DNA of 64,000 bases. Origin: Clostridium sp. Lineage in GTDB: Bacteria > Bacillota > Clostridia > Lachnospirales > Lachnospiraceae. The translations under genes and the position numbers were made by a program. The stretch is taken from NCBI GenBank assembly GCA_023664605.1, contig JAMPFF010000006.1, positions 30,977-94,976 of the forward strand, in the 5' to 3' direction. How positions within the stretch are numbered: position 1 is the stretch's first letter; each line of letters starts with the position of its first letter. The notes beneath the pieces are model-generated. The model was given only the letters and a program-made list of their open reading frames with translations. It made no database searches and was not told where the DNA came from. Below, piece by piece: positions 129-54,940 of this stretch.

Positions 129-190
129 ATAATAACCATGCCTTTCCTCAACCTGCAAGTTTGTAGCCAAAGCGCTATCAGCGCTGACAC
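129..190 (-). repeat. Family-1 structured leader, copy A (upstream of ffh)
   Basis: Read on the minus strand this is a hairpin with arms AGCGC/GCGCT, then CTACAAACTTG, then CAGGTTGAGGAAAGG, then about 12 nt to the ffh ATG. The same arrangement of hairpin, CAAA(N5-6), CAGGCTGAGAGAAAGG and ATG recurs before alaS, ligA and the ABC ATPase gene at 54874. The conserved tail contains the ribosome binding site. It lies in the 68-bp ylxM-ffh gap, so it is transcribed. This copy is the most diverged in the tail (CAGGTTGAGG instead of CAGGCTGAGAG). Confidence 0.65.
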
Positions 191-196
191 AACCTT

Positions 197-562
197 TTAT
201 AACTCTTCTAAAATATCCGCCGATAACTGCCGGATTTTTCTGCAATACTTTATCTTGTCCTCTTTTTCATCCTGCTCGTAACGTTTCGATAAAGCATCGA
301 TTTCTTTAATCTGTTCTTTGATTTTTAGAAATCTGGCAATCAGCTTCAATTTCTCCTCATATTCCATAAGCGCCTTATCGCACCGCTTCACGATGTCATG
401 TACGCCCTGCCTGCTGATTCCCGCTTCCGCGGCAATCTCACTTAAGGAAAGATTTTCATAGACGATACCCTCGTATATCTGCCGTTGATGCTCTGTCAAT
501 AATTCGCCATAAAAGTCATACAACAAGCCCTGCTCTACGATTTTTTCCATGGTGACAGCCAT
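197..562 (-). CDS. ylxM: YlxM-like SRP-associated helix-turn-helix protein
   Basis: A 121-residue protein of the YlxM/p13 (UPF0122) family, encoded just before ffh as in most Firmicutes. The LLYDFYGELLTEHQRQIYEG segment and the following LSLSEIAAEAGISRQGVHDIVKRC form a sigma-region-4-like helix-turn-helix; the C-terminal half is a charged coiled coil. The family is thought to influence SRP assembly or expression; the mechanism is not visible here. The first ATG (562) lies only one base after a GGAG, so the ATG at residue 5 (MEKIVEQG, 550) is an equally plausible start. A promoter with TTGACA and TAAAAT boxes lies immediately upstream (600-628). Confidence 0.9.
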   Translation of the reverse strand: MAVTMEKIVEQGLLYDFYGELLTEHQRQIYEGIVYENLSLSEIAAEAGISRQGVHDIVKRCDKALMEYEEKLKLIARFLKIKEQIKEIDALSKRYEQDEKEDKIKYCRKIRQLSADILEEL

Positions 563-599
563 GCTCCTTTTTCAGCCCGTGGTTCTTTCAACTTTTGCT

Positions 600-628
600 A
601 TTTTACTATATTGGTGTGGGGGTGTCAA
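600..628 (-). promoter_or_regulatory. Sigma-A-type promoter for ylxM-ffh
   Basis: On the minus strand, TTGACA (628-623) is followed by 17 bp and TAAAAT (605-600), about 40 bp upstream of ylxM. This matches the vegetative consensus closely. It means ylxM-ffh is transcribed from its own promoter rather than depending on the ftsY-side operon, from which it is separated by the accessory island. Confidence 0.7.
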
Positions 629-825
629 GTATTTTTTCTTGACGGGGAAAGATTTGTGTTTGTCCGTCTTATGTTGTCTTGTTGTAAAATCAAGGTTTTA
701 TATGTTTTTCTTCTATGGCACATTCAAAGACAATATTAAGACAACTCTTCAAATTTGCCATTATGCTATGCTTCTTTCCCTCCTCAATCATTTCTGTGCA
801 ACATTGTCAAGTAACAATTTACCAA
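629..825. other. Intergenic stretch without a supported gene
   Basis: Between the ylxM promoter and the terminator at 826-877 the sequence is AT-rich with short T-runs. I see no convincing coding sequence on either strand. An open frame on the plus strand (549-959) has no ribosome site, no recognisable protein features and runs antisense across the ylxM promoter. Confidence 0.5.
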
Positions 826-877
826 AAAGAGCCGATATTCGATACAACTTTTTCATAGAAGTTTCGATTATCGGCTT
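826..877 (-). terminator. Terminator-like hairpin downstream of the acyltransferase gene
   Basis: Imperfect inverted repeat of about 19 bp per arm. The left arm contains AGCCGATA and ends in ACAACTT; the right arm begins AAGTTTCGAT and ends TATCGGCT. Read on the minus strand it is followed by CTTTTTGG, as expected for an intrinsic terminator. It lies about 150 bp beyond the stop of the acyltransferase gene and marks the ylxM-side edge of the accessory island. Confidence 0.55.
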
Positions 878-1025
878 TCGTATCTGTCTGTACAGGAAGA
901 TACAATTTTGTTCACTATGCTACATAAAAGCTGTGATATTTTCATCTGCCTCAGCTTAAAAAACTCTCTTTACTCGTTTTGACTTCACAATCTAATTATT
1001 TTTTCGTAACAGTCTCGGTTAAATA

Positions 1026-1610
1026 TCAAATAATGTCTTTCATATCATTCGATTCCTTTAAAAATTTCTTTTCAAGTTCAAGTAGGTCTTTTTTTCTCTC
1101 TTTTATTTTTTTACAAGGAATCCCGACATATATTCCCCACGTGTCCACACTCCTATTCACTAATGACATGCTTCCTATGGCACTTCCTTCTCCTATTGTT
1201 ACATTCGGCAAAACACTTACTCCTGTGCCTAAAATTACGTGTCTTCTAAGTGTTACTTTACCTCCAGATACGTTTCTAAATTCATCTGGAACAGTCGGAT
1301 TTGTAAGTGCTATACCACTATAATCATCACTGTCTCCATAAATCACACCACGAGATGATATGGCTGAAAAATCTTCCATCACAATTCCTGACTCACCGCC
1401 AAATAATCCACAATACGCAGCGATATGAATGAAATTTCCTAAGGTTATGTTTCCGCTCAATATACAAAAATCATCTATTCGAACATTGTCTCCAATACTG
1501 ATTTTATTAGCTCCGTATATTGTAGCGTTTCTGCTTATCAATACGTTTTCCCCATAAGCGTGTAATCCTAATTCCTTTAGTTCTTGTTTACTATAAAAAC
1601 TCGTTGCCAT
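1026..1610 (-). CDS. Hexapeptide-repeat acyltransferase (LbH family)
   Basis: A 194-residue left-handed beta-helix acyltransferase. Repeated isoleucine/valine-rich hexapeptides run from about residue 25 to 165 (ISIGDNVRID, ITLGNFIHIA, VTLRRHVILGTGVSVLPNV, TIGEGSAIGSMSLV), ending in the GIPCKKIKERK tail typical of sugar and antibiotic O-acetyltransferases. These enzymes move acetyl from acetyl-CoA to a sugar hydroxyl or amine; the substrate cannot be named. The ATG is preceded by a GGGGGG ribosome site and, further up, a small hairpin (1621-1640, CCAAAAAGT/ACTTTTTGG). The gene is AT-richer than the housekeeping genes nearby and sits beside a serine recombinase, so it is probably cargo of a mobile island. 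A surface-polysaccharide role is an inference. Confidence 0.75.
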   Translation of the reverse strand: MATSFYSKQELKELGLHAYGENVLISRNATIYGANKISIGDNVRIDDFCILSGNITLGNFIHIAAYCGLFGGESGIVMEDFSAISSRGVIYGDSDDYSGIALTNPTVPDEFRNVSGGKVTLRRHVILGTGVSVLPNVTIGEGSAIGSMSLVNRSVDTWGIYVGIPCKKIKERKKDLLELEKKFLKESNDMKDII

Positions 1611-1780
1611 TTTCTGCCCCCCAAAAAGTGTACTTTTTGGATAGCAATTTTTAATTAAAATTCTGCCTTGCGAAATAATACATTTTCATTGCAAAATAAG
1701 TGTTTTTATAGTATCATTGTTTTCGGATGTAGCAATAAGGCAATTTACAAAAAAGTACACATTCCTGTAAATCTGACTGC

Positions 1781-2407
<627 letters not shown>

Positions 2408-2541
2408 TTAAATCCAAGGCAGAACGCCACCTGTATCGTCGTCCATCTTCCTATTGTGCTTCTATACGCCACAATGCGTGCAAAATCGTTAAATCCGCTC
2501 TCTGCAAGATATGAAAGCCTCGCCTATTTTACATCACTATA

Positions 2542-2598
2542 AACAAATATAAAAATATGTGTTTCAACATTGACAAATACTTTTATATTTGTTATTAT
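2542..2598 (+). promoter_or_regulatory. hicAB promoter with overlapping palindromic operator
   Basis: TTGACA (2570-2575), 17 bp, TATTAT (2593-2598) form a strong promoter 25 bp before hicA. Two 16-bp arms, AACAAATATAAAAATA (2542-2557) and TACTTTTATATTTGTT (2578-2593), are inverted copies matching at 15 of 16 positions. One lies just upstream of the -35 box and the other fills the spacer up to the -10 box. This is the geometry expected for autorepression by the DNA-binding domain of HicB. Confidence 0.7.
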
Positions 2599-2622
2599 AT
2601 GAATGTCAGGAGGAAATACTGT

Positions 2623-2820
2623 ATGAAAAGCTATTCATCAAGGGAGATTATCAAAATGCTGAAAGCGGATGGATGGTATGAAGTAAATATTGTTGGAAGC
2701 CACCACCAATACAAGCACCCAACCAAAAAGGGGCGTACAACCGTCAAGCATCCCGATAAAAACATCCCGCTCCCAACGCTAAAGCGCATTGAGCAACAAT
2801 CAGGGCTAAAATTTAATTAA
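2623..2820 (+). CDS. hicA: HicA toxin, mRNA interferase
   Basis: A 65-residue protein of the HicA/YcfA family with a dsRBD-like fold. Visible features are the N-terminal SSREIIKMLKADGWYEV helix and strand, the GSHHQYKHP core with the catalytic histidine region, and the VKHPDKNIPLPTLKRIEQQSG tail. HicA cleaves mRNA unless bound by HicB. The ATG at 2623 is chosen because AGGAGG lies 8 nt upstream; a longer frame from 2557 would start upstream of the -10 box. It is followed 44 bp later by hicB, giving the toxin-first order usual for this family. Confidence 0.93.
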   Translation: MKSYSSREIIKMLKADGWYEVNIVGSHHQYKHPTKKGRTTVKHPDKNIPLPTLKRIEQQSGLKFN

Positions 2821-2864
2821 TTCCGGTATTTTCTCCCAGCAGACAATGAAAGGGGCATTATAAA

Positions 2865-3269
2865 ATGAAAAAAACTGAACGCTATTTTTATCCTGCTGTT
2901 TTTACCTACGCACCTAATCAGGAAATAGCCGTGGACTTTCCGGACTTAGGGGCAGCGACCAGTGGTACTAATGAGGATGACGCTTTATTATCGGCCCGTG
3001 AACTACTCGGCTGTGTCATTTATGGACTTGAAGAAGATGGGGATGAAATTCCCGCACCAACGCCCTTATCTGACATAAAAACAAAAGAAAATGAAAGAGC
3101 CGTTCTTATTGATGTTTATATGCCGTCTATACGCATGGCACATGTAAACCGCTCTGTAAACCGCACCGTAACGCTCCCTGCTTGGCTTAATGCTATTGCC
3201 TTAGAGCATAATGTAAATTTTTCCCAAATTCTTCAGGATGCATTAAAAACACAGCTTCATTTAAGATAA
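2865..3269 (+). CDS. hicB: HicB antitoxin
   Basis: A 134-residue antitoxin. Residues 8-60 (YPAVFTYAPNQEIAVDFPDL followed by GAATSGTNEDDALLSARELL) form the degraded RNase-H-like domain that occludes HicA. The C-terminal part (RTVTLPAWLNAIALEHNVNFSQILQDAL) is a ribbon-helix-helix DNA-binding domain. The latter fits the inverted-repeat operator upstream of hicA. Transcribed with hicA; a hairpin at 3318-3351 follows. Confidence 0.92.
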   Translation: MKKTERYFYPAVFTYAPNQEIAVDFPDLGAATSGTNEDDALLSARELLGCVIYGLEEDGDEIPAPTPLSDIKTKENERAVLIDVYMPSIRMAHVNRSVNRTVTLPAWLNAIALEHNVNFSQILQDALKTQLHLR

Positions 3270-3317
3270 AACTTCTTACACTCTGTTGTCGAATATGCTA
3301 TATTAGACGTAGAAAAG

Positions 3318-3351
3318 GGGAAAGCCATAGAAGCGACTCTATGGTTTTCCC
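3318..3351 (+). terminator. Hairpin downstream of hicB
   Basis: Arms GGGAAAGCCATAGA and TCTATGGTTTTCCC (one mismatch) around a 6-nt loop, 49 bp after the hicB stop. The downstream sequence reaches a run of five T only after about 12 bp, so it may be a weak terminator. Confidence 0.5.
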
Positions 3352-3387
3352 ATATCGACAATATTTTTCTTTTCAAACATCCCATCA

Positions 3388-3438
3388 AACAAAGCAGGAA
3401 ATAAACCGATATCGGTTCTATTTATTTCCTGCTTTGTT
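3388..3438 (-). terminator. Long near-perfect hairpin at the island/chromosome junction
   Basis: Eighteen-base arms AACAAAGCAGGAAATAAA and TTTATTTCCTGCTTTGTT flank an inner CCGAT/ATCGG stem. It directly follows the stop codon of the orphan fragment (3440-3499) on the minus strand. It may terminate minus-strand transcription, or be the end structure of the inserted element. Confidence 0.55.
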
Positions 3439-3439
3439 A

Positions 3440-3499
3440 TTAAGCCAAACCTACCGCTGTTTTGCCTTGACCTGTTGCACCTATACGCCCTATCAGCAC
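3440..3499 (-). pseudogene. Orphan C-terminal fragment with a P-loop-like motif
   Basis: On the minus strand, 19 codons read VLIGRIGATGQGKTAVGLA and a stop, beginning inside the last codons of the C39-like gene in another frame. GATGQGKT resembles a Walker A motif. There is no start codon or ribosome site, and a strong hairpin follows at once. The simplest reading is the tail of a gene carried in at the end of a mobile element and truncated at the insertion junction; chance cannot be excluded. Confidence 0.3.
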
Positions 3500-4161
3500 T
3501 TAATCTCCAAATATCCTAAAAGCTTACTCATATCATACTCTGTCAGTACGCCCGCGTGGGAATCATAGAACTTGCCGTCAAAGTGTACCAGATAATGACA
3601 GAAACGGCCCATTCTCTCCATCAGAATCGCACATTTCGGCAGCACGGTATCTTTTCCTTCCGTATACATGATAATATCGGTATGGTCGATGCCGTAATAA
3701 TTCAAGGCGGAAATCACGCGCCCCATTGTCGCCTGCCACTCTCTGCAATCCATCACGCTGATAACTTCCGCAATAGTCGTTCCCGCTAACATTGCCACGC
3801 AGGCCTGCCCGCAAAGTCCGTCTTCCTCCAGTTTGATAACATCAATGCTGTCAATCTTACGAATCGGATTCTCAAAACTATAAGGGCTGTTCTGATCCAT
3901 ACGGATTAAAGAACCGTTGACATGTAACAAAATTTTATGTGTGGAACCCGGCTCTACGCTCACTGCGGATTCATCTTCGATACGGATGTAATAATTTCCT
4001 TTCTCCTTGGGATGCAGTTCACAATCAATAATCTTATTATCCAATACTAAATCGCCTTGGATGACATCCCTCTGCTTACATACCTCCCATACATTAAAAG
4101 GAAGATGAATCTCATATCCTTTGTCCTGTTTTTCGACTTTAGCTTCAAAAAAATACCTCAT
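3493..4161 (-). CDS. DUF1905-like domain fused to a C39-like cysteine peptidase
   Basis: A 222-residue protein without signal peptide or membrane segment. Residues 1-90 resemble the DUF1905 beta-barrel (FFEAKVEKQDKGYEIHLPFN, then a VIQGDLVLDNKI segment). Residues 113-205 resemble a papain-like C39 peptidase: EDGLCGQACVAML with Cys117 as candidate nucleophile, CHYLVHFDG with His189, and KFYDSHAGV with Asp200. If active it would cleave a peptide, as leader-peptide C39 domains do, but no transporter is fused or adjacent and no precursor is visible. It is the last gene of the long minus-strand run before the island. Its ribosome site lies in a GGAATGGAGG block behind a GGTGT/ACACC hairpin, like the tail of the family-2 leaders. 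Confidence 0.6.
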   Translation of the reverse strand: MRYFFEAKVEKQDKGYEIHLPFNVWEVCKQRDVIQGDLVLDNKIIDCELHPKEKGNYYIRIEDESAVSVEPGSTHKILLHVNGSLIRMDQNSPYSFENPIRKIDSIDVIKLEEDGLCGQACVAMLAGTTIAEVISVMDCREWQATMGRVISALNYYGIDHTDIIMYTEGKDTVLPKCAILMERMGRFCHYLVHFDGKFYDSHAGVLTEYDMSKLLGYLEIKC

Positions 4162-4269
4162 GTTTCCTCCATTCCGGTGTCTTACACCTATATTTAATAA
4201 ATTGCACTGCTTTCTCTATACCCAGTTATCATTGTAGCAAATTTCCGGAGACTTGAAAACCACTTTTTA

Positions 4270-5394: not shown

Positions 5395-5420
5395 ATTCCT
5401 TTCCTGCTTCCCGGCGTTTT

Positions 5421-6272: not shown

Positions 6273-6353
6273 TCTTTTCCCCTTTTCTAAACAAGAAAAT
6301 CGCTTTGCACTTAGTATGCGGACTTATCACATATCGTATTCTTGAAAACCCTT

Positions 6354-7568: not shown

Positions 7569-7588
7569 TTGCATCTGTCCTTTCCCTT

Positions 7589-12813: not shown

Positions 12814-12830
12814 CCGTATCTCCCATCTAA

Positions 12831-20158: not shown

Positions 20159-20220
20159 CTTTACTTATGCCCCTTTCTCAGCCTGCGATGTTTGTGTCTG
20201 GCGTTACCAACGTCAACACA
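20159..20220 (-). repeat. Family-1 structured leader, copy B (upstream of alaS)
   Basis: Minus-strand order: hairpin with arms GTGT...CGTT and AACG...ACAC, then AAACATCG, then CAGGCTGAGAAAGGGG, 12 nt, ATG of alaS. The tail matches copies C and D over CAGGCTGAGA-AAGG, while the stem sequence is entirely different but still paired. Confidence 0.7.
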
Positions 20221-20227
20221 AACTCGC

Positions 20228-20253
20228 GGTTGAAAGAATTTATTCTTTCAACC
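20228..20253 (-). terminator. Symmetric hairpin between glyS and alaS
   Basis: Perfect arms GGTTGAAAGAA and TTCTTTCAACC with a 4-nt loop, starting directly after the glyS stop codon. There is no T-run after it, so it may be an RNA-stabilising or processing stem rather than a terminator. Confidence 0.5.
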
Positions 20254-20254
20254 T

Positions 20255-21646
20255 CTAGAACTCAAATTTATCCGCAAAATAAGCATCCAGTTTTTCAATC
20301 TCCACGCGTTCCTGCTCCATGGAATCCCTGAACCTGACGGTTACGCAGTTATCCGTCTCGGAATCAAAATCGTAGGTAATGCAAAACGGCGTGCCGATTT
20401 CATCCTGCCTTCTGTAACGCTTGCCGATATTGCCTCTGTCGTCGTATTCGCAGTTGTATTTTTTTGATAACTGCGTATAAATCTTTTCCGCGCCCTCGTT
20501 TAATTTCTTGGATAACGGCAGTACGCCGATTTTTACAGGCGCAAGCGCGGGATGGAAATGCAGTACGGTACGCATATCCCCCTCCCTGATTTCTTCTTCG
20601 TCGTAAGCGCCGCAAAGTACGGCTAAAAAAAGCCTCTCCACGCCTAACGAAGGTTCAATCACATAGGGGATATATTTCTGCTGCTTCTCATCATCAAAAT
20701 AACTCATATCCTGCTTGGACACATTCTGGTGCTGTGTCAAATCATAATCCGTCCTATCTGCAATGCCCCACAACTCGCCCCAGCCGAAAGGAAACAGATA
20801 TTCAATATCTGTCGTCGCTTTGGAATAGAACGACAATTCCTCCTTTTCATGGTCGCGGACTCTCATTTCCTCCGCTTTCATGCCAAGGCTCTTTAAAAAG
20901 TCGATACAATATTTTTTCCAGTATGCGAACCACTCCAAGTCTGTGTCCGGCTCACAGAAAAACTCCATTTCCATCTGCTCAAACTCCCGGACGCGGAAAA
21001 TAAAGTTGCCCGGCGTAATTTCATTCCTGAAAGATTTGCCCACCTGACAGATACCGAAAGGAATCTTCTTACGGGAAGTTCTCTGTACATTTTTAAAGTT
21101 TACAAAAATACCCTGTGCGGTTTCGGGTCTTAAGTATACCGTATTCTTAGCGTCCTCCGTAACGCCCTGAAAGGTCTTAAACATCAGGTTAAACTGCCTG
21201 ATATCCGTAAAATTATGTTTGCCGCAGGTCGGACAGGGAACATTATTTTCTTCAATAAACGCTTTCATCTGCTCCTGGCTCCAGCCGTCTATGGAACTTT
21301 CCAATGTTATTCCTTTTTCTTTTGCATAGTTCTCAATCATCTGGTCGGCACGGAAACGCTCATGACATTCCTTACAGTCCATCAACGGGTCAGAGAAACT
21401 TCCCAAATGTCCGGACGCCACCCATGTCTGGGGATTCATCAAAATCGCGCAGTCCACGCCTACATTATATGGGCTTTCCATAACAAATTTCTGCCACCAG
21501 GCCTTTTTGATATTATTCTTAAGTTCCACGCCAAGGTTGCCGAAATCCCATGTATTGGCAAGACCCCCGTAAATTTCCGAACCCGGATATACAAATCCCC
21601 TTGACTTTGCTAACGCTACAATCTTCTCCATTGTCTTTTCCATCAT
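20255..21646 (-). CDS. glyS: Glycyl-tRNA synthetase, alpha2 type
   Basis: A 463-residue class II synthetase of the homodimeric (archaeal/eukaryotic-like) type found in many Gram-positive bacteria. Visible blocks are [57 protein letters not shown] (motif 2), [20 protein letters not shown] (motif 3) and the C-terminal anticodon-binding domain. Zinc-binding cysteines occur in [12 protein letters not shown] and [11 protein letters not shown]. The ATG at 21646 (MMEKTMEK) has GGAG 8 nt upstream; an in-frame ATG at 21673 is less likely. It lies behind a lipoprotein gene and ahead of alaS. Confidence 0.95.
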
Positions 21647-25179: not shown

Positions 25180-28095
25180 TTAGTGGAATAAATAATCCGT
25201 CTCCTCAAATAATTTCGCCTGTTTCTTTATTTTTTCCTCATTTCCTACAACGCACAGGCAGTCGTTTTCCATAAACGCCCTGATATACGCCGCCAGTTCC
25301 CTGATGGTCTGCGGCACAGCTGCCAGCAGCTCATCCCGCTCTTTCTGTACCTGTTCGTCCGTATAGTGCGTCATATAGCCCGCCAGAGAATACGCTCCCT
25401 TAGCCGCAGGCGTCATCGGCATATCCAGTTCGCTGACCGCGCCGATAATATATTGCGTCATCGTCCGCTCATCCGCATCAAAATTCTTAATATAATCCGC
25501 AGCCTGTTCATAGATTTCTATCGTCTTTTCCAGATTCGGATCCCTATAGGAAACAAAATAACTCTCGCCCGATTTTCCAAAACTGCACCAACATCCGTAA
25601 GCGCCGCCTTTTACACGCACCTGCGTCCACAAATAATCATAGCCCATGATAACTTTTAATACCCTTAGCGCGCCTGTATAAGAAAGCCCCTGTGCATGGA
25701 AATTACCGGCTCTGCACACATACTGTACCTGAGCGGACGACATAAAGCCCTCGTTTTTATGCTCTAATACCGGTTCATATCCTGTTTCCACAATCGGCTC
25801 CTTATGGAGGCTGTCACGAAATGCGGCGATTAAAGTTTCGATATTTTGCAGTCCTTGCGGCTGCGCGGTATAATCCACCATCAGATTTTCCGGTCTGAAA
25901 AGGCAGACGGCAAGCTGGTTTAATTTCTCCACCAGCTCCTCTTTTCTATTTTCAAAATCGCTGTCCATATCCTCTAACAGACGGTAAAACGGCAGTCCGC
26001 TTATCATGTCGGAAACAGCGGCAGTCTTAGAAATATAAGATAATGCGCGCACCAGCGCAAGCGAATGCCCCGATAACATCATATTTGCCTGTTTCTGGGA
26101 TTTGAACTCCGCTACTAATTCACGCAGACGCTTCGTATCGTCAAAGCGGGAAGTCATAACAATTTCCTCCACCAGCTTAAATGCCTGCTCCAAATTCTCA
26201 TAAAGCACCTTGACTTTTATTTCCAGTGCCGCCGTATATTTATCCATCTGTCCGGCGTCCGTATAGGTATTTGCCGTCGGCGAGATACCGCCCGTCTGTA
26301 TATTGATTTCATTAAATAATTCCCCGTAGGTATAGTGTTTCGTGCCAATCAGACCAAGAATGGACTTTAACAGCCCCACATAAGGAAATAACCTTTCCGG
26401 CACATTTCGCAAATCAAACATAAAACGCAGATAGCCTATGCCGTTTGTAGAAAGATTATGATAGAGCAGAACCGTATCGCCGACCTTTTTTTCCTCGTTG
26501 ACATACTTTGGCGCTTCTTTTTTCATATCCGCCCTTGTCAATAAGGGAATTTTTTCCAAATCCTCTTTTTTATCCGGCTCCTCCTGATAACGTTTCAGTT
26601 CTTTTGTCTGCGCCACAATCTCTTCCAGTTTCTCTTTAGCCATCCCTGCCTTTATCTTTGCAAGTTTCTCCTCCAACTCCCTGTCTTTTTGTCCTGTCAG
26701 CCCTTTTACGGGTTCTACCACCACTATTGTCTTATGGTTATTATCAATCAGATAATCTCTAAGCAGTTTCTCGTAATAATCGCTGTCAATGGCTTTTTTT
26801 AATTTTTTATAAGTCTCTTCGGCTTCCAGATGAATAAAGGGTTTTTCATCATCATAAAGCCAACTGTCAAACATCTGCAAGCCATACATCAATCCTTTCG
26901 GATAGGAACCGAAATCCGCTTCCCTGAACCGGAACTCATAATAATTGAGTCCTGCACGCAGCGCATCTTTATTGATCCCATCCCTGGCCAGTTTCCGTAA
27001 ATTTTCTTCTATCGTTTCCGTAAATTCCGAAAGCTGCTCCTTATTGGCATTTTTAGCCACTATGGAAAAATAGGGCTGTTTCAGGCTGCTGTCGTATATA
27101 CTGTAAATATCTTTTCCAATGCCCTTATCAATCAAGGCCTGTTTTAGCGGTGCGCCGGGCGCAGAACACAGCACATAGTCAAATACCTGATAGGCAATGT
27201 AACGTTCTTTATCCGAACTGTTCCCTAAAGAAATATTATAAGAAAGATACGTATTGTCCTTTTCCGATTCGCTCTCCATAATCGGATATTTCTTATAAAC
27301 GGTAACGATATTATCAAAAGGGGGTTGCGTTTGTAAAGCAGAATCCACATTCAACTTATCATAATGGGATAAATAGTTTTCGTCTATAAACGTAAGATTC
27401 TCGGCCATATCCATATCGCCATACAAATAAATATAGCTGTTTGACGGATGATAGTATTTTTTATGGAATGCCAGAAAATCCTCGTAGGTAAGCTCGGGAA
27501 TCACATCCGGGTCTCCGCCCGATTCCACCGCATAGGAAGTCTGCGGGTATAAGGAGTTCATAATTTCCCTGATAAGCATATCGTCGGGAGAAGAAAAGGC
27601 TCCTTTCATCTCATTATAGACAACGCCGTTAATCGTCAGTTCATCATCCGCACTCTCCATTTCATAGTGCCAGCCCTCCTGCTTAAAGATTTTTTCCTCA
27701 CGATAGATATTGGGATGAAAAACGGCGTCTAAATATACGTCCATCAGATTCCTAAAATCCTTGTCATGGCAGCTTGCCACCGGATATACCGTCTTATCCG
27801 GATAGGTCATGGCATTTAAAAACGTATTAAGCGACCCTTTCGATAATTCAATAAAAGGGTCTTTGACCGGAAATTTATCGGAACCACAAAGCACAGTATG
27901 TTCTATGATGTGCGCTACGCCCGTACTGTCCTTGGGCGGCGTTCTGAATCCGATACAGAACACCTTGTTATTATCATCATTGGACATTAACACTACCCTT
28001 GCGCCCGTCTTATTGTGTTTCATCAGATATCCGATGGAATTAAGTTCTTTGATTTGTCTTTTTTCAAGCACTGTATATGCCTGTAATTGTTCCAT
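25180..28095 (-). CDS. M16C zinc metallopeptidase (presequence-protease-like)
   Basis: A 971-residue insulinase-family protease of the PreP/Cym1 type, which degrades oligopeptides inside a closed clam-shell of four homologous domains. The inverted zinc motif HIIEHTVLCGSDKFP (HxxEH) is near residue 55, and the downstream glutamate is expected in the GVVYNEMKGAFSSPDDML segment. Length fits the single-chain M16C class. No signal peptide, so probably cytosolic. The start at 28095 (MEQLQAYTV) is set by the GGAG of a family-2 leader; an in-frame ATG at 28230 would translate that repeat and is rejected. Confidence 0.92.
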   Translation of the reverse strand: MEQLQAYTVLEKRQIKELNSIGYLMKHNKTGARVVLMSNDDNNKVFCIGFRTPPKDSTGVAHIIEHTVLCGSDKFPVKDPFIELSKGSLNTFLNAMTYPDKTVYPVASCHDKDFRNLMDVYLDAVFHPNIYREEKIFKQEGWHYEMESADDELTINGVVYNEMKGAFSSPDDMLIREIMNSLYPQTSYAVESGGDPDVIPELTYEDFLAFHKKYYHPSNSYIYLYGDMDMAENLTFIDENYLSHYDKLNVDSALQTQPPFDNIVTVYKKYPIMESESEKDNTYLSYNISLGNSSDKERYIAYQVFDYVLCSAPGAPLKQALIDKGIGKDIYSIYDSSLKQPYFSIVAKNANKEQLSEFTETIEENLRKLARDGINKDALRAGLNYYEFRFREADFGSYPKGLMYGLQMFDSWLYDDEKPFIHLEAEETYKKLKKAIDSDYYEKLLRDYLIDNNHKTIVVVEPVKGLTGQKDRELEEKLAKIKAGMAKEKLEEIVAQTKELKRYQEEPDKKEDLEKIPLLTRADMKKEAPKYVNEEKKVGDTVLLYHNLSTNGIGYLRFMFDLRNVPERLFPYVGLLKSILGLIGTKHYTYGELFNEINIQTGGISPTANTYTDAGQMDKYTAALEIKVKVLYENLEQAFKLVEEIVMTSRFDDTKRLRELVAEFKSQKQANMMLSGHSLALVRALSYISKTAAVSDMISGLPFYRLLEDMDSDFENRKEELVEKLNQLAVCLFRPENLMVDYTAQPQGLQNIETLIAAFRDSLHKEPIVETGYEPVLEHKNEGFMSSAQVQYVCRAGNFHAQGLSYTGALRVLKVIMGYDYLWTQVRVKGGAYGCWCSFGKSGESYFVSYRDPNLEKTIEIYEQAADYIKNFDADERTMTQYIIGAVSELDMPMTPAAKGAYSLAGYMTHYTDEQVQKERDELLAAVPQTIRELAAYIRAFMENDCLCVVGNEEKIKKQAKLFEETDYLFH

Positions 28096-28195
28096 TTTAC
28101 TCTCCATTCCGGAGCGTTTTTGCGACGGGGCGACGCAAATCTCAAATTTGCGTCTGCCATCAGGGCATATTTGTGACGCTCCGGCACAAATTGCC
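28096..28195 (-). repeat. Family-2 structured leader, copy E (upstream of M16 peptidase)
   Basis: Minus-strand order: GGCAATTTGTGC, CCGGAGCGT, CAAATATGCC, TGATGGC, a variable stem (GCAAAT repeated inverted), then ACGCTCCGGAATGGAG and the M16 start. CCGGAGCGT pairs with ACGCTCCGG over about 80 nt, placing the Shine-Dalgarno GGAG just outside the stem. The same order occurs at 59077-59175. Confidence 0.7.
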
Positions 28196-28305
28196 GTGTG
28201 AAAAATCAGCACATCAGTGTGATTTTTCACACTACTCCTCCTACTCGATTAGAACTTCTCTTCACCCTAGTATATCACTTCCCCCGAAAATTAGTAAAGC
28301 CTATT

Positions 28306-36940: not shown

Positions 36941-38894
36941 GATACTCCCCCATAAAATCCTCTTCCGAAATAATCCGCACGCCCAGTTCTTTTGCCTTTT
37001 TATTTTTGGAAGAGGTGGACGTTACGTCGTTGTTAATCAGACAAGTTGTCTTGGAAGTGACGCTGCCTGTTACTTTCCCGCCTTTTTTTTCAATGACATC
37101 TTTTAACTCGTTTCGGTTTTCATAGTGCATAAGGCTTCCCGTAATGACAAAATTCATTCCCGATAGAATCTGTTCGCTTTCGTCCATCGTTTCAATAGCG
37201 ATTGTTATTTCATCCAACAGATGCGCTAACTGCGCCACATTTTCCGCATCCTGAAAATATTCGTAAAACGCGCCCGCAAGCACCTCCCCGATACCGTCTA
37301 TCTCGCTTAACTCTTCTATCTGCGCCGTCTGCACCGCCCCGATATCATAACGGTAGTATCGGCATATCATTTTAGCATTGGCAAGTCCGATTCCCGCAAT
37401 GCCAAGACCATAGATAACTCTGGGAAGCGTCGTATTCCTTGCCGTATCGATACTGTTTATCAGATTCCGGTACGACTTTTCCCCGAATCCCTCCATATTG
37501 GTAATTTCTTCTTCATAATGATGCAGCTTAAAAATATCCGCATATTCATGGATAAAGCCTTTGGCAATAAACTTTTCCAACGTGGCTTCCGAAAGCCCGT
37601 CAATATTCATTGCATCCCTGCTGACAAAAAGGGTAAACGATTTAATCTTTTTTGCTTCACACGACGGATTCGTGCAATATAACGACTGCACTTCATTCAC
37701 TTTTCTAATTTCCGTCGGCTGTCCGCACACCGGACAGGCATCCGGAATCTGAACGGAATCGCTTTTTGTCAAATTTTCCGCAATCTGTGGAATAATCATA
37801 TTCGCCTTATATACGGTAATATGGTCGCCGATGCCTAACTTTAAATTACGCATGATACTGATATTGTGTACCGACGCCCGGCTGACAGTCGTTCCCTCTA
37901 ATTCCACCGGCTCAAATACGGCAATCGGGTTTATCAGTCCGGTACGGCTCGGACTCCATTCTATCTCTTTTAATACCGTCTCCCGCAGTTCGTCCGCCCA
38001 CTTAAAGGCTATGGAATCCCGTGGGAATTTTGCGGTCATGCCAAGGGAACGCCCATAAGTGATATCATCATAGGTAAGCACAAGCCCGTCCGAGGGAATA
38101 TCATAGTTTTCTATCTTCTTTTCAAAATAGGAAACCGTCTCTAAAATATTATCGGGCGTCACTTTTTTATACTCCACCACATCAAAACCCTGTTCCTGTA
38201 AAAAATGAAACTGTTCCTCGCGGGAATTATGAAAATCCACGCCCTCCGCTTTCACAAGGCTGAATGCATAAAACATGACGTTCCGATTAGCGGTCACCTC
38301 GTTATTTAATTGACGCACGGAACCGCTGCAAAGGTTACGCGGATTTTTATACTTGCTCTCTACATCCTCGATTTTCTGATTAATCTGCTCAAAATCAGAA
38401 TAGGAAATCACAGCCTCCCCCCGCAAAATCAATTCCCCCTGAAAAGGAATGGAAAGCGGGATATTTTTAAAAACTCTGGCGTTATTCGTAATAACCTCTC
38501 CTACTTCCCCGTTTCCCCGTGTAACAGCCTTTGCAAGTTTTCCTGCAAAAAATGTCAAAACAATGGTAAGCCCGTCTAATTTCCACGATAAAAGCGCCTC
38601 CTTATCATTTAACCAATCGCGCAACTCTTCTCTGTTTTTCGTTTTTCCAAGTGACAACATCGGGCTTTCATGCCTTTCTTTCGGTAGTTCATCCACCGCC
38701 TCATATCCGACCTGCACCGTGGGGCTGTTTGTCAAAACAATGCCCGTATCTGCCTCTAATGCCGTCAGCTCGTCATACAGTTTATCGTATTCAAAATTAC
38801 TCATGATTTCCCTATCCTGCGCATAATATGCTTCGGAAGCCCTGTTTAATGTGGAAACCAATTCTTTCATACGGTTCATTTTTTCATTCGCCAT
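36924..38894 (-). CDS. ligA: Divergent NAD-dependent DNA ligase LigA
   Basis: A 656-residue ligase with the full layout: Ia domain (1-70), adenylation domain with catalytic Lys105 (LLSWKLDGLTIVL), OB fold, four-cysteine zinc finger (CPVCGQP...YCTNPSCEAKK), helix-hairpin-helix repeats and a C-terminal BRCT domain. It uses NAD+ to seal nicks. Several usually strict positions differ: TRGDG is TRGNG (residue 128), and the motif IV lysine of DGVVIK is Thr274 in DGLVLTYDD. The motif V lysine is kept (Lys298, IAFKW). It is either a lineage variant or a second, specialised ligase. The start is defined by leader copy C. Tail-to-tail with metA. Confidence 0.9.
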   Translation of the reverse strand: MANEKMNRMKELVSTLNRASEAYYAQDREIMSNFEYDKLYDELTALEADTGIVLTNSPTVQVGYEAVDELPKERHESPMLSLGKTKNREELRDWLNDKEALLSWKLDGLTIVLTFFAGKLAKAVTRGNGEVGEVITNNARVFKNIPLSIPFQGELILRGEAVISYSDFEQINQKIEDVESKYKNPRNLCSGSVRQLNNEVTANRNVMFYAFSLVKAEGVDFHNSREEQFHFLQEQGFDVVEYKKVTPDNILETVSYFEKKIENYDIPSDGLVLTYDDITYGRSLGMTAKFPRDSIAFKWADELRETVLKEIEWSPSRTGLINPIAVFEPVELEGTTVSRASVHNISIMRNLKLGIGDHITVYKANMIIPQIAENLTKSDSVQIPDACPVCGQPTEIRKVNEVQSLYCTNPSCEAKKIKSFTLFVSRDAMNIDGLSEATLEKFIAKGFIHEYADIFKLHHYEEEITNMEGFGEKSYRNLINSIDTARNTTLPRVIYGLGIAGIGLANAKMICRYYRYDIGAVQTAQIEELSEIDGIGEVLAGAFYEYFQDAENVAQLAHLLDEITIAIETMDESEQILSGMNFVITGSLMHYENRNELKDVIEKKGGKVTGSVTSKTTCLINNDVTSTSSKNKKAKELGVRIISEEDFMGEYLTQSP

Positions 38895-38957
38895 TTAATA
38901 CCCATTCCTTTCTCTCAGCCTGTGGTATTTGCTGTTAAAGCGCTAACAGTGCCAGCA
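38895..38957 (-). repeat. Family-1 structured leader, copy C (upstream of ligA)
   Basis: Minus strand: hairpin CTGTTA-GCGCTT-TAACAG, then CAAATACCA, then CAGGCTGAGAGAAAGG, 12 nt, ATG of ligA. The tail is identical over 16 bases to copy D. It fills most of the 87-bp rluF-ligA gap. Confidence 0.72.
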
Positions 38958-38981
38958 TAAATTTACGTCTATTTTTACACA

Positions 38982-39704
38982 TTAATGCGTCATTTTGCAT
39001 AAAGAATACAGAAGTTGTGTCTCTTCTTCGCTCAATTCACGATATTCTCCCGGTTTTAAGTTTGCAAGATAAACGTTCATAACACGCGTTCTCTTCAAAC
39101 TGCGTACCCGATATCCGACCGCTTCACACATTCTGCGTATCTGCCTGTTGACCCCTTGGGTTAATATCATATTCATTGTCTTTTCACCCGTCTTGGTAAT
39201 CTCACAGGCTCGTGTCGTCAAACCGAGTTCTTCCAGATAAATGCCCGCTCTCATCTTTTCAAGGGCATCATCCGTCAATATTTTATCCACTTTTACGACA
39301 TATTCTTTCTCATGACGGTTCGCGCCCCGCATCATTGCGTCAATCAGCTCCCCGTCGTTTGTCATCAGCAAAAGCCCCTCAGAGTCTTTATCCAGCCTGC
39401 CCGCATAGGTTACGCGGATTGGATAACACATGTTATCTATCACCTTTACCTTGGCATGTTTATCACGCTGCGTACACGTTACGCCAATCGGCTTATAATA
39501 GGCCAAAACCACCTTTTTTTCCGGGTTTTTTACAGGTTTTCCATGGACGCAGACCTCGTCTGCATCCGTTACCTGTAACCCGGGATGCGCAGGCTTTCCA
39601 TTGACGGTAACCGCACCCTTTTCTATCAGTTTATCCGCGTCTCTCCGGGAACAGATACCGCACTGCGCAATATATTTATTTAGTCTCGTTGTCTTATTGT
39701 TCAT
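38982..39704 (-). CDS. rluF: 23S rRNA pseudouridine synthase, RluF/RsuA family
   Basis: A 240-residue enzyme isomerising uridine in rRNA. An N-terminal S4 RNA-binding domain (RLNKYIAQCGICSRRDADKL) precedes the catalytic domain with the Asp in TYAGRLDKDSEGLLLMTNDG, and the family end block GVNRQIRRMCEAVGYRVRSL then KRTRVMNV. The latter favours RluF (U2604) over RluB. The start MNNKTTRLNKY (39704) overlaps the end of the SGNH gene by 11 bp; longer in-frame starts lack resemblance to the family. Confidence 0.88.
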   Translation of the reverse strand: MNNKTTRLNKYIAQCGICSRRDADKLIEKGAVTVNGKPAHPGLQVTDADEVCVHGKPVKNPEKKVVLAYYKPIGVTCTQRDKHAKVKVIDNMCYPIRVTYAGRLDKDSEGLLLMTNDGELIDAMMRGANRHEKEYVVKVDKILTDDALEKMRAGIYLEELGLTTRACEITKTGEKTMNMILTQGVNRQIRRMCEAVGYRVRSLKRTRVMNVYLANLKPGEYRELSEEETQLLYSLCKMTH

Positions 39705-43874: not shown

Positions 43875-43898
43875 ATTTCTTTCTCCTTTTCTTTCTCT

Positions 43899-45407: not shown

Positions 45408-45423
45408 ATCTTTCCGATATTAC

Positions 45424-45452
45424 TTGCGTATTTTTTTCAAACTCTGTATAAT
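45424..45452 (+). promoter_or_regulatory. Promoter for the symporter gene
   Basis: TTGCGT (45424-45429), 17 bp, TATAAT (45447-45452), 42 bp upstream of the ATG at 45495 with GAGGAGA as ribosome site. Divergent from the methyltransferase gene. Confidence 0.6.
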
Positions 45453-45494
45453 GGAACACGTGCTATAAATCAAACAAAAGAATGAGGAGAAATT

Positions 45495-47015: not shown

Positions 47016-47040
47016 AAAAGGCACCGCAAGGTGTCTTTTT
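47015..47040. terminator. Terminator shared by convergent genes
   Basis: AAAAGGCACC, GCAA, GGTGTCTTTT followed by TT: a compact stem at the end of the symporter gene and abutting the stop of the minus-strand gene 47040-47660. Confidence 0.8.
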
Positions 47041-47660: not shown

Positions 47661-47684
47661 GTCTTTCCCGAAAATTTTTCGTAT

Positions 47685-48341: not shown

Positions 48342-48450
48342 ATTAACACCCCTTTTTATTTCATTTCCATCGTCCGGACTTTGTTATATTTATTATATCG
48401 AACATTTAAGCAAAAAATAAAGAGAATTGTCACCAACAACACCGTTTCTG

Positions 48451-51089: not shown

Positions 51090-51229
51090 CTATTACAATC
51101 TCCGTTTATGACAGTTTCCTTTATTTATGCGGGCAAGTTGCGTAAGCCGCAAATAAGTCTCCGCTAAACGTTTATTATATGACGTATGCCGTCTTTTTGT
51201 CAATCTGCGCAGCTATTGTGGTACAACGC

Positions 51230-51259
51230 AAAAGTGGATAAGCATCCCTATCCACTTTT
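51230..51259 (-). terminator. Terminator-like hairpin between the LytTR regulator and carboxypeptidase genes
   Basis: Perfect 11-bp arms AAAAGTGGATA and TATCCACTTTT with an 8-nt loop, 27 bp after the regulator stop. A short TTTT ends the stem on the minus strand, so termination may be partial. The following 140 bp to the carboxypeptidase start holds no further gene. Confidence 0.6.
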
Positions 51260-51286
51260 ATAACACTTGTTATGACAATGAAATAA

Positions 51287-51988
51287 TTAGATTGATTCCT
51301 GTAAAAACCCGCAGTACGTCTGCACAAACTCCCCGTATTTCCGTTTTGCCAGATAAATCTGTTCGCCGTTACTGACACGGATGCTGGTACTGTCATATCC
51401 TCTGATTTCCGCCAGGGATACGATATAACTGCGGTGGCAGCGGTAGAAGCCCTCGCCCAGCCGCTTCTCTAATTCCTCCATCTTCTCATAAAATTCCAGC
51501 TTCTCCTGCTTCGTATGCAGAATGACTTTTCTGCCGTCGCTCTCCGCATACAAAATATCCGACAGATTCAATCTCCGGTAGCCGTCCGCCGCCTTTACCA
51601 GCATATATCTTTGCCTGCTATTTGCCTTTTCCACTTCTGCAATGGCTCTTTCCATAACCGAAAGCAGCTTTTCTTTTTCCACAGGCTTAAGCAGATAATG
51701 AAAAGCGCCTACGTCAAATGCCTGAAATACCTGTTCCTTTATGCCTGTTACAAAGATTAACAGCATATCGGAAAGTTCCCGCAGCTTTTTCGCTGTCTCC
51801 ATGCCGTCCATGCCATCCATAGCAATATCAAGCAGTACGATATCCGGCATATATGTCTCTCCTATCGTCTCTAACAGTTCCCGTCCGGAGGCAAACTCAC
51901 GTATTATCATTTCCGGAAATGCCTTTCCTAATACCGTGTGTATGCTTTCTCTGACTCTGCTCTCATCATCACAGATTGCAATATTCAT
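51287..51988 (-). CDS. LytTR-family response regulator
   Basis: A 233-residue regulator. The receiver domain starts MNIAICDDESRVRESIHTVL with phospho-acceptor Asp in MPDIVLLDIAMDGMDGMETA and ends in FHYLLKPVEKEKLLSVMERA. The LytTR DNA-binding domain (about 135-230) contains VILHTKQEKLEFYEKMEELE and FYRCHRSYIVSLAEIRGYDS. It likely controls envelope or peptide-signalling genes and pairs with the GHKL kinase encoded downstream. The start at 51988 is the canonical MNIAICDDE; an upstream in-frame codon at 52039 is rejected. Confidence 0.93.
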   Translation of the reverse strand: MNIAICDDESRVRESIHTVLGKAFPEMIIREFASGRELLETIGETYMPDIVLLDIAMDGMDGMETAKKLRELSDMLLIFVTGIKEQVFQAFDVGAFHYLLKPVEKEKLLSVMERAIAEVEKANSRQRYMLVKAADGYRRLNLSDILYAESDGRKVILHTKQEKLEFYEKMEELEKRLGEGFYRCHRSYIVSLAEIRGYDSTSIRVSNGEQIYLAKRKYGEFVQTYCGFLQESI

Positions 51989-52169
51989 ATAAGTTCCAGT
52001 AACTTTCCTTCCTGCCCCTCCATGGCTGTTTACTTTCAAAATCCATTCTCCGGTTTCTGATATTATTATCGGGCAGTTTGTGCCGGTTTCTTAACCGGAA
52101 TGTCATGAAATACGTTGTTTTTGTCATAAACGTTGCGCGGCTGCGGCATTTTTTACCAGGCGCTTATGG

Positions 52170-54092
52170 TTATACGCCCGCATTCTTTTTATAAAACGTT
52201 ACTGAAAGTTCATAAAATAAAACGAAAATCACCAAAATAATCAAAACGCTCGCAACATTAATACCCCGCAAATTACAGGACATGACTTTTTCTAAAGAAT
52301 GCACCGAAAAATAAGAGGAAACCATCATCAGTAAAAACGGCATCCCGTATGCGGCGCACATCTCTTTTTCCACCGCCCTGCCGAGGGCTTTTTTAGAAAT
52401 GCCAATTTTTTGTAAAACGAGATAACGCTCTTTTTCCTCGAAGGCGTCGTTATACAATTTCATAAATAAAATGCTGCCGCTCGCCAGTACAAAGACAAGG
52501 AACATGAAGATACATAACGAATACTCCACCTTTATCCAGGCGCGGTCGTCATTGTCGGGGTCAATCGCCACGCGCCCCGTATAGGTTTCGTCCGTATTAT
52601 CCATAATGCTGTCCAGTTCGTCCATAGACGCCCTGAAATTTCTGATATCCTCAATTCTGTAATTATAGGTATACGCCTCGTCAAAGGTCAGTCCCGTACC
52701 GGCATTTTGCCTGCATACTTCCAATAACTGCGCATAGGTCGTATCGCTTACAATATAATAACTGCTGTTTTCCTGTAAATATCCCAGATAGGGAACCCTT
52801 GTATCGTCTATCTGCCTGTACTGCCTGCCGTTTATTCCCACTTGTTTTTCCGCAGTATTACTGATAAAAGACATTAATACGACGTGTCCGGCATAGATGA
52901 CCTCATCATCCGCTAACGCTTCATAGGGAAAATCCAGACCAGCCTGCGCCGCCGCTTCTTTTACCTTGGAAAAAGATAAAATCCCGTAGGAAAAACCGTC
53001 GTCAAAATAACTGCCATCCAAAGAAAAGAAAGGAATTTCGCAGCTGTAGGCAATATCGTTATCCTTTTCGATTAATGCCGCCACCTCGTCTTTCCTGTCC
53101 GGGATATTGGTAAGAATCTGGAACGTATAGGTATTCCTGAAATTCACGATATTATCATACTGCTGTTTCGTCGCAAAACTCGCCGCAAGCGCGGTCACCG
53201 AACAGGTAAGCAGCACACAGGTCATCGCATAAGTTCTGTAATTTTTCCGCATACGGAAGATAACGTTATTCACCCAGAGGGCGCGTTCTTTTTTGTACAA
53301 AAATAGTTTATTTCTGGAAAGCTGCTGGAACAATATCGGCAAAAATCCGCCAAAGAGCAGATAGGTTCCCACAATAACAAAGACCGTCGCCGCAAACAGA
53401 TTCCCTATCTGATTATACCCGCTTTCTTTCGTGGCAAGGTAGTAACCGTTTATCAGCGCGGCAACGCCAAGCGCCGCTTTTGCCATTAAAATCAAACCAT
53501 TTACCTTGACATATTCATTCTGCCTTGCGGCGGATATCTTTTCCAAAACGCTGCTTCTTACGATATTAACATACCCTTTTAACATAAAAATACCATAAAT
53601 AATAAAATAAACCGCCGCCGATAAGGCAACCGGCTTCCATGTAAAGTCAAAAGAAATTTCTACCGCAATCTCGGACAGTTTTAATAAAATCATCTGAAAA
53701 AGCTGCGCCGTTATGACGCCTAATCCGATACCGAATAAAAAAGCCGCGCATCCTGTCATAACGGTCTCCATCAGGTACAGCCTGGCAATTTTCCTATTCG
53801 TAAGCCCCATGAAAATATAGGTTCCCATTTCCTTTTTTCTTGCCGTCAGAAAAACATTTGCCGCATACCAGATAAAGAAAAACATAAAACAGACCAGCAC
53901 AAACGCCACTATCCGGGTAATCATATCAATGAAGTCTTTATTTCTTCCCCCCAGCGCACGGAACGTGTCCGCATAGGTAAGGTTGATAAAGTTAAATAAA
54001 ATTAATACCGTAAAGGCAAGCGAAAGAATCATGGAAAGATAATTCCTGAAGCTTCTTTTGAAATTATAAAAGGCAAGTTTCATAATACTCAT
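52170..54092 (-). CDS. BceB-type ABC permease (FtsX/MacB family)
   Basis: A 640-residue permease of an antimicrobial-peptide resistance ABC transporter. It has about ten membrane helices, two FtsX-type blocks (residues 50-165 and 540-640), and a large exterior domain of about 200 residues between helices 7 and 8 (from ATKQQYDNIVNFRNTYTFQI to YTGRVAIDPDNDDRAWIKVE). That domain is the usual peptide-sensing element. The start overlaps the ATPase stop by four bases. Together with the kinase upstream it would act as co-sensor of bacitracin-like or lantibiotic peptides. Confidence 0.92.
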   Translation of the reverse strand: MSIMKLAFYNFKRSFRNYLSMILSLAFTVLILFNFINLTYADTFRALGGRNKDFIDMITRIVAFVLVCFMFFFIWYAANVFLTARKKEMGTYIFMGLTNRKIARLYLMETVMTGCAAFLFGIGLGVITAQLFQMILLKLSEIAVEISFDFTWKPVALSAAVYFIIYGIFMLKGYVNIVRSSVLEKISAARQNEYVKVNGLILMAKAALGVAALINGYYLATKESGYNQIGNLFAATVFVIVGTYLLFGGFLPILFQQLSRNKLFLYKKERALWVNNVIFRMRKNYRTYAMTCVLLTCSVTALAASFATKQQYDNIVNFRNTYTFQILTNIPDRKDEVAALIEKDNDIAYSCEIPFFSLDGSYFDDGFSYGILSFSKVKEAAAQAGLDFPYEALADDEVIYAGHVVLMSFISNTAEKQVGINGRQYRQIDDTRVPYLGYLQENSSYYIVSDTTYAQLLEVCRQNAGTGLTFDEAYTYNYRIEDIRNFRASMDELDSIMDNTDETYTGRVAIDPDNDDRAWIKVEYSLCIFMFLVFVLASGSILFMKLYNDAFEEKERYLVLQKIGISKKALGRAVEKEMCAAYGMPFLLMMVSSYFSVHSLEKVMSCNLRGINVASVLIILVIFVLFYELSVTFYKKNAGV

Positions 54093-54874
54093 GACAACGC
54101 ACCTCCCGTCTCGTCTCCAAACGTCTCACCCATAGACGCCTGCAGGGAAATAATGCGGTCGTAAAATTCCTTACGGCTCTCTCCCCTGCTGATTCTGCAT
54201 TTTATGATACCGTCATTTAAAAGACAGACGTCTCTGGCATAAGAAGCGCTGAACGCATCATGCGTCACCATTAAGATTGCCGCCTGCTTTCTCTCATTGA
54301 CCGTTCTGAAACATTCCAGTAAATCTCTGCCCGCTTTGGAATCTAACGCTCCCGTCGGCTCGTCCGCAAAAAGAATCTCCGGCTCCGTAATTAAGGCACG
54401 ACACACCGCGCCTCTCTGCTTCTGTCCGCCCGATAACTGATACGGGTATTTGGATAAATGCTCCGTCAATCCAAACAGCCTCGCCAATTCTTCCGTCTTT
54501 TCTTTACATACTTTAGAGGAAACGCCGTTTAACGAGAGCGGCAGAGCGATATTGTCCTGTAACGTCATGGTGTCTAACAGGTTATAGTCCTGAAAAACAA
54601 AGCCGATTTTATCCCGCCGCAGCTTGGATAATTCCTGATTAGAAATTTTACCGATGTCTTTTCCATCCATCAAAAGAATGCCCTGCGTGGGCGTATCGAT
54701 GGATGATAAGATATTCAGAAGCGTCGTCTTGCCGGAACCGCTGGGACCCATAACGGCAATAAAATCGCTTTCATAAATTGTCAAATCGATTCCTTTTAAT
54801 ACTCTGCTGCGGAATCCCTTTGCACCGTATTCTTTTGTCAGGTTTTTGATTTCTACGATAATTTTTTCATTCAT
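54089..54874 (-). CDS. BceA-type ABC transporter ATPase
   Basis: A 261-residue ATPase of the MacB/LolD class. Walker A is MGPSGSGKTTLLNILSSID, the Q-loop FVFQDYNLLDTMTLQDNIAL, the signature YQLSGGQKQRGAVCRALI, Walker B EILFADEPTGALDSKAG and the switch VTHDAF. Its message starts with a family-1 leader (copy D), and a putative operator/promoter lies behind that. Confidence 0.95.
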   Translation of the reverse strand: MNEKIIVEIKNLTKEYGAKGFRSRVLKGIDLTIYESDFIAVMGPSGSGKTTLLNILSSIDTPTQGILLMDGKDIGKISNQELSKLRRDKIGFVFQDYNLLDTMTLQDNIALPLSLNGVSSKVCKEKTEELARLFGLTEHLSKYPYQLSGGQKQRGAVCRALITEPEILFADEPTGALDSKAGRDLLECFRTVNERKQAAILMVTHDAFSASYARDVCLLNDGIIKCRISRGESRKEFYDRIISLQASMGETFGDETGGALS

Positions 54875-54940
54875 GTGAATAATCCTGCCTTTCTCTCAGC
54901 CTGTAATATTTGTGCGCCAAGACGCCAAGCGTCAGCGCAA
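54875..54940 (-). repeat. Family-1 structured leader, copy D (upstream of the ABC ATPase)
   Basis: Minus strand: nested hairpin TGCGC-T-GACGC-TTG-GCGTC-TTG-GCGCA, then AATATTA, then CAGGCTGAGAGAAAGG, 14 nt, ATG. It lies wholly within the predicted 5' UTR, because the -10 box is at 54979-54984. Confidence 0.72.

Follow-up and report, generated by a model that had tools for sequence, protein, structure and literature searches.

The present analysis concerns a 64,000-nt stretch of DNA from Clostridium sp. of the family Lachnospiraceae (contig JAMPFF010000006.1, positions 30,977 to 94,976 of the forward strand), called the window below, and a family of short hairpin elements that stand in it just upstream of start codons. 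Judged from sequence comparison, these elements are probably short mobile repeats that are non-autonomous and belong to a genus of Lachnospiraceae; they would supply a ribosome site to the genes they precede. The repeats are multi-copy and gene-oriented, and they mostly end a few bases 5' of a start codon with a Shine-Dalgarno sequence (SD) at their 3' end. A second SD-like sequence is frequent at the 5' end, and related species differ in whether an element stands at a given orthologous gene. In the following, G000 denotes the own genome, G034 its sister species, other G numbers further genomes, and L numbers element loci.

The first-pass annotation had reported four leaders of one layout, before ffh, alaS, ligA and an ABC ATPase gene. 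All four are present where it placed them, on the minus strand, and a fifth copy of a second type was found between those of alaS and ligA (Table 1). The elements of type A are about 80 nt long and those of type B about 135 nt. The order of type A is a left end in ..TAG, a palindrome P1 (for example GTGTGAAAAATAAATTTTTCACAC; other versions have GATTGA, GGTTGA or GGGTGA), an optional hairpin P2 (GACAAATGTATTTGTC), a stem P3 (GCGA.TTTG...loop...CAAA..TCGC), the tail CAGGYTGAGAGAAAGGCATGGTTATT that holds the SD, about four bases and the ATG. The "CAAA plus 5-6 nt" described by the first-pass annotation does exist, but it is the 3' arm of the longer stem P3 and not a separate part. The stems, said to have no sequence in common, share the base of P3; their most variable part among the four leaders is the P3 loop, which may contain an extra small palindrome. 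Nor is the tail nearly invariant, as had been claimed: the ffh and alaS tails differ, and the exact 16-mer occurs only in the ligA and ABC ATPase copies. The alaS copy has an upstream palindrome P1, GGTTGAAAGAATAAATTCTTTCAACC, which had been missed, and P1 is not recognisable by eye in the ffh, ligA and ABC ATPase copies. In type B, P1 is common with type A and is followed by P3' (GGCAATTTGTG...CACAAATATGCC), P4 (GACGCAAAT...ATTTGCGTC) and the end GGAATGGAGATTA, and the loop of P3' forms a pseudoknot with the bases just 5' of the SD (GGAGCGT/ACGCTCC). An SD-like sequence, AGGAGGAG, lies directly 5' of the type B copy.

Table 1. Copies of the element in the window, with scores of the covariance model R1.
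Copy	Positions	Strand	R1 score (bits)	Parts and start codon
ffh	132..216	-	24.0	decayed P3 hairpin at about 156-197 and tail CAGGTTGAGGAAAGG at 155-141; ATG at 128
alaS	20161..20256	-	80.2	full-length type A: P1, P3, tail CAGGCTGAGAAAGGGG from 20185
fifth copy, type B	28101..28233	-	33.2 (at 28142-28235)	extended to 28101 on reading; P1, P3', P4, pseudoknot GGAGCGT/ACGCTCC, SD GGAATGGAG; ATG at 28095
ligA	38898..38983	-	28.2	P3 and tail CAGGCTGAGAGAAAGG from 38922; ATG at 38894
ABC ATPase	54879..54963	-	26.3	P3 with inner GACGC/GCGTC stem and tail CAGGCTGAGAGAAAGG from 54903; ATG at 54874

How many copies are there, and how far do they extend? Within the window, the exact 16-mer tail at up to three mismatches was found three times against 0.46 expected, which is weakly significant since 1 of 100 shuffles reached as high. 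In the own genome, the pattern CAGGYTGAGN{0,3}AAAGG gave 23 matches and its reversed form one. Searched with the covariance model R1 (83 positions comprising P1, P3 and the tail, built from 28 copies aligned with MAFFT), the own genome has 125 matches at E<=1, of which 79 fall below 0.001. The number per genome ranged from 0 to 73 when 60 genomes of the genus were searched, and 54 of the 60 had at least one match at E<=0.001. Among 150 genomes of the family, matches at E<=1e-5 appeared in only seven (7 of 149 genera, the own included). A scan of the genome collection with the tail pattern returned at least 108 stretches; the named contigs among the matches listed belong to Lachnospiraceae, including Anaerocolumna sedimenticola and the cultured Lachnospiraceae bacterium 28-4 and IMSAGC_002, or to metagenome-assembled genomes labelled Bacillus, Ruminococcus, Blautia, Muribaculaceae and Clostridiales, labels that are unconfirmed. 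In G067, near-identical copies occur, as do head-to-tail arrays of two or three units. Dispersed multi-copy repeats with their own SD support the idea of a mobile ribosome-site cassette, which the first-pass annotation had offered as one of its options.

The placement of the elements was examined in 97 of 106 own-genome matches of R1 and in 62 of 64 matches from other genomes, after short and identical ones were dropped; at least one row of the former (L175 on the plus strand) repeats a counted copy on its other strand, and in the latter one place enters twice (L253/L315). By a crude gene caller, on which the position, mirror and start-adjacent flank counts all rest, 73 of the 97 own-genome matches lie within 40 nt of a sense start codon, 11 at 41-300 nt and two farther, while six face a converging gene and five have no gene in the piece. 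The corresponding numbers in other genomes are 35, 18, 4, 4 and 1. A sense start codon follows downstream in 78 of the 97 own-genome matches, against 10 at the mirror position on the left end under the same open reading frame (ORF) rule, and the test in other genomes gives 37 against 4 of 62. Thus a genome search returns the dozens of sense, start-adjacent matches with covarying pairs that the first-pass annotation had looked for. Immediately 5' of the element, the sequence conforms to GG(A)G(A/G)ATA. For matches with a canonical P1 start and not in tandem (52 of the 97 and 56 of the 62), complementarity to the anti-SD at least as strong as -5 kcal/mol was calculated at the 5' junction; it was reached in 28 of 52 own-genome windows, compared with 4-14 at 15 other offsets, and in 32 of 56 windows of other genomes, compared with 4-18. 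Among start-adjacent copies with canonical P1 in the other genomes, 23 of 30 have an SD-like 5' flank, five are without it and two are tandem.

Orthologous sites tell whether such placement is kept. For alaS, an R1 element was found in 2 of 30 fetched loci, those of G000 and G034 (starts were located in 28 of the 30), and by eye G079 has a type B-like end at this site. For ligA, 2 of 14 orthologues have the element and 12 do not. For ffh, 3 of 14 match: G000, G034, which has a bare tail, and G035, which has a different full element; ten are without it, the G016 locus was not located, and G007 has a tail-like remnant. Placement is thus not kept at these three genes, contrary to the conserved-regulator reading of the first-pass annotation. 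The best candidate for conserved placement, as far as the sequences indicate, is a copy before the putative gene rpmE of ribosomal protein L31, seen in several species of the genus (L028-L030, L032, L035, L051).

The comparison with the sister species also shows elements in different states. Both flanks (at least 80% identity) of 40 of 96 G000 copies were found in the G034 DNA examined, a count that favours shared copies since this DNA came from contigs and regions in which the model had matches. Clean empty sites with an ordinary SD and ATG were recognised by eye in G034 at L191, L218 and the second copy of L174. The L218 orthologues of G071 and G073 are empty as well as that of G034, which argues that L218 was gained in G000. 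In G063, flanks of 6 of the 96 G000 copies were found in 400 kb, in DNA too diverged for junctions to be read. Decay is also visible. At ffh, the G000 hairpin is flanked by AGGTTG on both sides, and in G034 a single AGGTTG is followed by the same tail, AAAGGTTGAGGAAAGGCATGG; from these sequences, the sister species appears to have lost the hairpin and kept the tail. Hairpins have been lost with P1 or tail scraps left at L172, L179, L201, L230 and L237 in G034 and at L239 in G000, and the bare tails before csoR-like (L001) and ppdK-like (L012) genes fit such scars.

These observations suggest the following scenario. A copy would come from another place in the genome and insert at a ribosome-binding site, in most cases with the old SD on its 5' side and the ATG on its 3' side. 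The ribosome would then switch to the SD of the element, so that translation of the gene continues. The hairpins would later be deleted via short direct repeats, and the tail would remain as the only SD of the gene. The stems might be kept paired because they are needed for mobility, for mRNA handling, or for both. We tentatively extend this to a more specific proposal: an insertion machinery may recognise ribosome-binding sites (consensus GGAG(A/G)ATA) and place the element in sense in the gap between SD and ATG, where the element may persist by means of its replacement SD, and in this way the start signals of dozens of genes, including essential ones, may have been rewritten. One alternative is an ordinary interspersed repeat without target choice, which inserts at any TA while selection alone leaves the sense copies at starts, where their SD is tolerated or useful. 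Several left flanks in G067 do end in TA without an SD (L297, L303, L307, L308), and tail-like SDs would be selected after insertion. But copies far upstream should be at least equally tolerable, yet start-adjacent ones dominate, and the SD-like flank is strongest in the high-scoring copies, where slow selection on old copies predicts the opposite. We regard insertion without target choice as rather unlikely, and a choice of SD sites by the insertion machinery as only slightly less so.

Several points weigh against mobile elements that land at ribosome sites and supply one, and should be noticed. The seed copies of R1 were found via the tail pattern, which includes the SD, so start-adjacent copies are favoured and tail-less copies away from genes are under-represented. 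In the own genome, only 16 of 33 start-adjacent copies with canonical P1 have an SD-like 5' flank (16 are without it and one is tandem), and among the five copies in the window this flank is clear in type B only. Among the recent G067 copies, some are located in sequence that is not SD-like or face the 3' end of another gene. The exact junction is not visible at the three clean empty sites, and a target duplication is thus unreadable there. No terminal inverted repeats are seen by eye, the left end TAG..TGAA and the right end GGTTATTA showing no match. Finally, no mobilising gene was found in a search confined to the Y1 transposase, which gave no match in the high-copy genomes G000, G067, G063 and G016; it is intact or partial in G035, G034, G071, G021, G079 and G005. 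An IS200/IS605 or RAYT origin was rejected on the absence of this transposase from the four high-copy genomes.

Could the elements spread with no transposase at all? Modules of the 5' untranslated region might be copied by template switching or recombination at short similarities common to SD and start regions. The filled sites L218 and L174, where the old SD remains to the left of the element and the final bases ahead of the ATG remain to its right, would agree with this, as would L177, where P1 was swapped as a whole palindrome at an orthologous site, and the deletions, which run through microhomology. Transposition is better suited to near-identical units at many G067 sites and to copies outside start regions, and we consider the transposase-free route improbable.

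There is a further question of concern, what does the pairing of the stems mean? The covariation noted by the first-pass annotation holds, with two-sided changes above shuffles in both types. The MAFFT alignment of 28 copies, to which no model fitting was applied, has two-sided changes in 13 of its 23 pairs, and 53 two-sided cells were counted compared with 19.1 in shuffles (0 of 500 as high) and 1-15 in slid controls. Alignments fitted to the model, which lean towards structure, gave 325 two-sided changes against 78.4 in shuffles for 100 distinct own-genome rows, and 83 against 25.1 for 57 rows of other genomes. For type B including the pseudoknot, 21 copies gave 53 against 13.6; the pseudoknot itself is 99.3% paired, and three of its pairs changed on both sides. 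All these counts overstate the number of events, as the copies are related repeats. Since the copies are interspersed, as their patchy placement, near-identical bursts and head-to-tail arrays indicate, a large share of the covariation compares copied hairpins with one another instead of orthologues. In view of the same features, the claim that the covariation argues for a selected RNA structure rather than simple repeat copying is not supported.

The sites shared by G000 and G034 allow the stems to be compared in place. Here 21 of 40 orthologous pairs were used (13 had a copy that was not intact in one or both species, and six were too short), and differences fall on 27 of 927 stem, 21 of 361 loop, 43 of 840 flank and 26 of 503 tail positions. 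Stems change more slowly than loops and flanks together (27/927 against 64/1201, p = 0.007). Among 24 changed pairs, 12 stay paired and 12 break, while 35% would be kept at random. The constraint on the stems in place is weak though real. At L177 the whole P1 was replaced by a different palindrome between the orthologous sites, and palindrome correction at the DNA level may accordingly contribute to the kept pairing.

Strong covariation and sense orientation would also be expected of a conserved cis-regulatory RNA, in which the tail and hairpins control a regulon of housekeeping genes. The carriers, named from their first residues, include genes of this kind (ffh, alaS, ligA, cmk, glmS, murA, uppS, thrS), stems change slightly slower in shared copies, and rpmE has the motif in several species. 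Against this, the element is absent before most of the orthologues examined, its number varies among genomes down to zero, there are tandem copies and copies away from genes, and half of the changed pairs in shared copies are broken. In 37 copies of type A, the duplex between P3 and the SD of the same copy is not more stable than with shuffled P3 (-8.1 against -7.8 kcal/mol; p<0.05 in 1 of 37). Sequestration of the SD by the P3 loop was rejected on these energies, although L162 and L075 look complementary. The cis-regulatory reading is therefore disfavoured, and we hold it to be very improbable.

Other candidates were dismissed more directly: a phage origin, as viral contigs have no exact match of the 24-base tail pattern; TPP, T-box or another riboswitch, as no Rfam family reaches gathering in the window; and an antisense small RNA complementary to the tail, as the reverse-strand pattern matches in the own genome belong to minus-strand genes and leave no candidate at the full pattern length, the only length searched. 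Permissive Rfam scans of 15, 12 and 6 loci returned three kinds of match: a T-box, situated 5' of the thrS copy; TD-2, on the opposite strand; and weak ones judged to be chance.

Some observations concern single loci. In the thrS leader (L017/L193), the element is located between the start codon and the upstream T-box (110 bits). A full type A copy common to G000 (C48) and G034 (L014/L164) has a tail followed by a terminator-like hairpin with no ORF; the matched element is identical in the two species, and from its layout it is a possible small RNA. Beside type A copies, more hairpin types with TAGTGTGA-like left ends (..AGAGAAGTTCT..) occur at L064, L113, L152 and L291. An alternative pairing is available at L011/L043/L201, where the strand CCTGCGATGT of a hairpin CACCTGCGATGTAGGTG has full complementarity to ACATCGCAGG at the tail as well. 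In several copies, the element has a tandem repeat of roughly 20 nt, AATAGTCATGTGTAGACGGA, on its 3' side, and at L177 (C4 of G000) G034 has a single unit.

Are the elements related to any known family? The first-pass annotation knew of no named RNA motif of this form, and none reaches Rfam gathering in the window; still, below that threshold TD-2 (RF03162, clan CL00124, "Gene; sRNA") matches on the other strand. At E<=0.001 there are 44 full-length sub-threshold matches, spread over 8 of the 15 genomes scanned, there is no match at this level in 14 control genomes, and four of the five own-genome TD-2 matches coincide with R1 matches. Its stem pair ugcGA.GUUU...AAACUCg, then GcUgAAaAgu..acUuUUcAgC, aligns with P3 and P1. 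However, all 44 matches stay below the gathering score of 48.7 bits (the best has 45.6, and none of the 15 genomes has one above it), the strand is opposite at the 17 places recognised by eye as common to the two match lists, and the consensus is without the SD tail. Two type A copies matched TD-2 in a permissive scan, again on the opposite strand, at E of about 0.03. The letters TD presumably stand for Treponema denticola, and no paper combining both names with T. denticola came up in a literature search.

REP/RAYT and IS200/IS605-derived palindromic elements have subterminal hairpins, no terminal inverted repeats and a fixed orientation to a short target motif. The present elements have these features in common with them, but the Y1 transposase that moves such elements is the one absent from the high-copy genomes. 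Like miniature inverted-repeat transposable elements, they are short, non-coding and dispersed in many copies; unlike them, they have no terminal inverted repeats by eye. The nearest described system, among those for which descriptions were at hand, is BOX of pneumococcus. BOX, RUP and SPRITE are short, hairpin-forming, modular and multi-copy intergenic repeats which alter the expression of neighbours (PMC3049150, accessible part). The likeness is in the modular hairpins in variable number (P1, optional P2, P3, arrays). The ends of BOX are inverted repeats resembling those of an insertion sequence, and ORFs made by BOX lack good SD candidates; no SD-site insertion or repeat-borne SD is described in the accessible part of that paper, the comparison being one of descriptions. 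A literature search found no description of an element like the present ones, subscription journals being largely outside its reach, and the accessible parts of PMC2864571 and PMC8040213 contain nothing on them.

What would these elements mean for the evolution of translation initiation in the genus? As a general point, covariation among repeat copies alone is no evidence for a regulatory RNA. If ribosome-binding sites are indeed targeted, TD-2 would belong with these elements as a distant branch whose annotation is on the wrong strand. The gap between SD and ATG is where an insertion does most harm; the ribosome site of the repeat itself would make such an insertion harmless, and the origin of many SD sequences of a bacterial genus would be explained.

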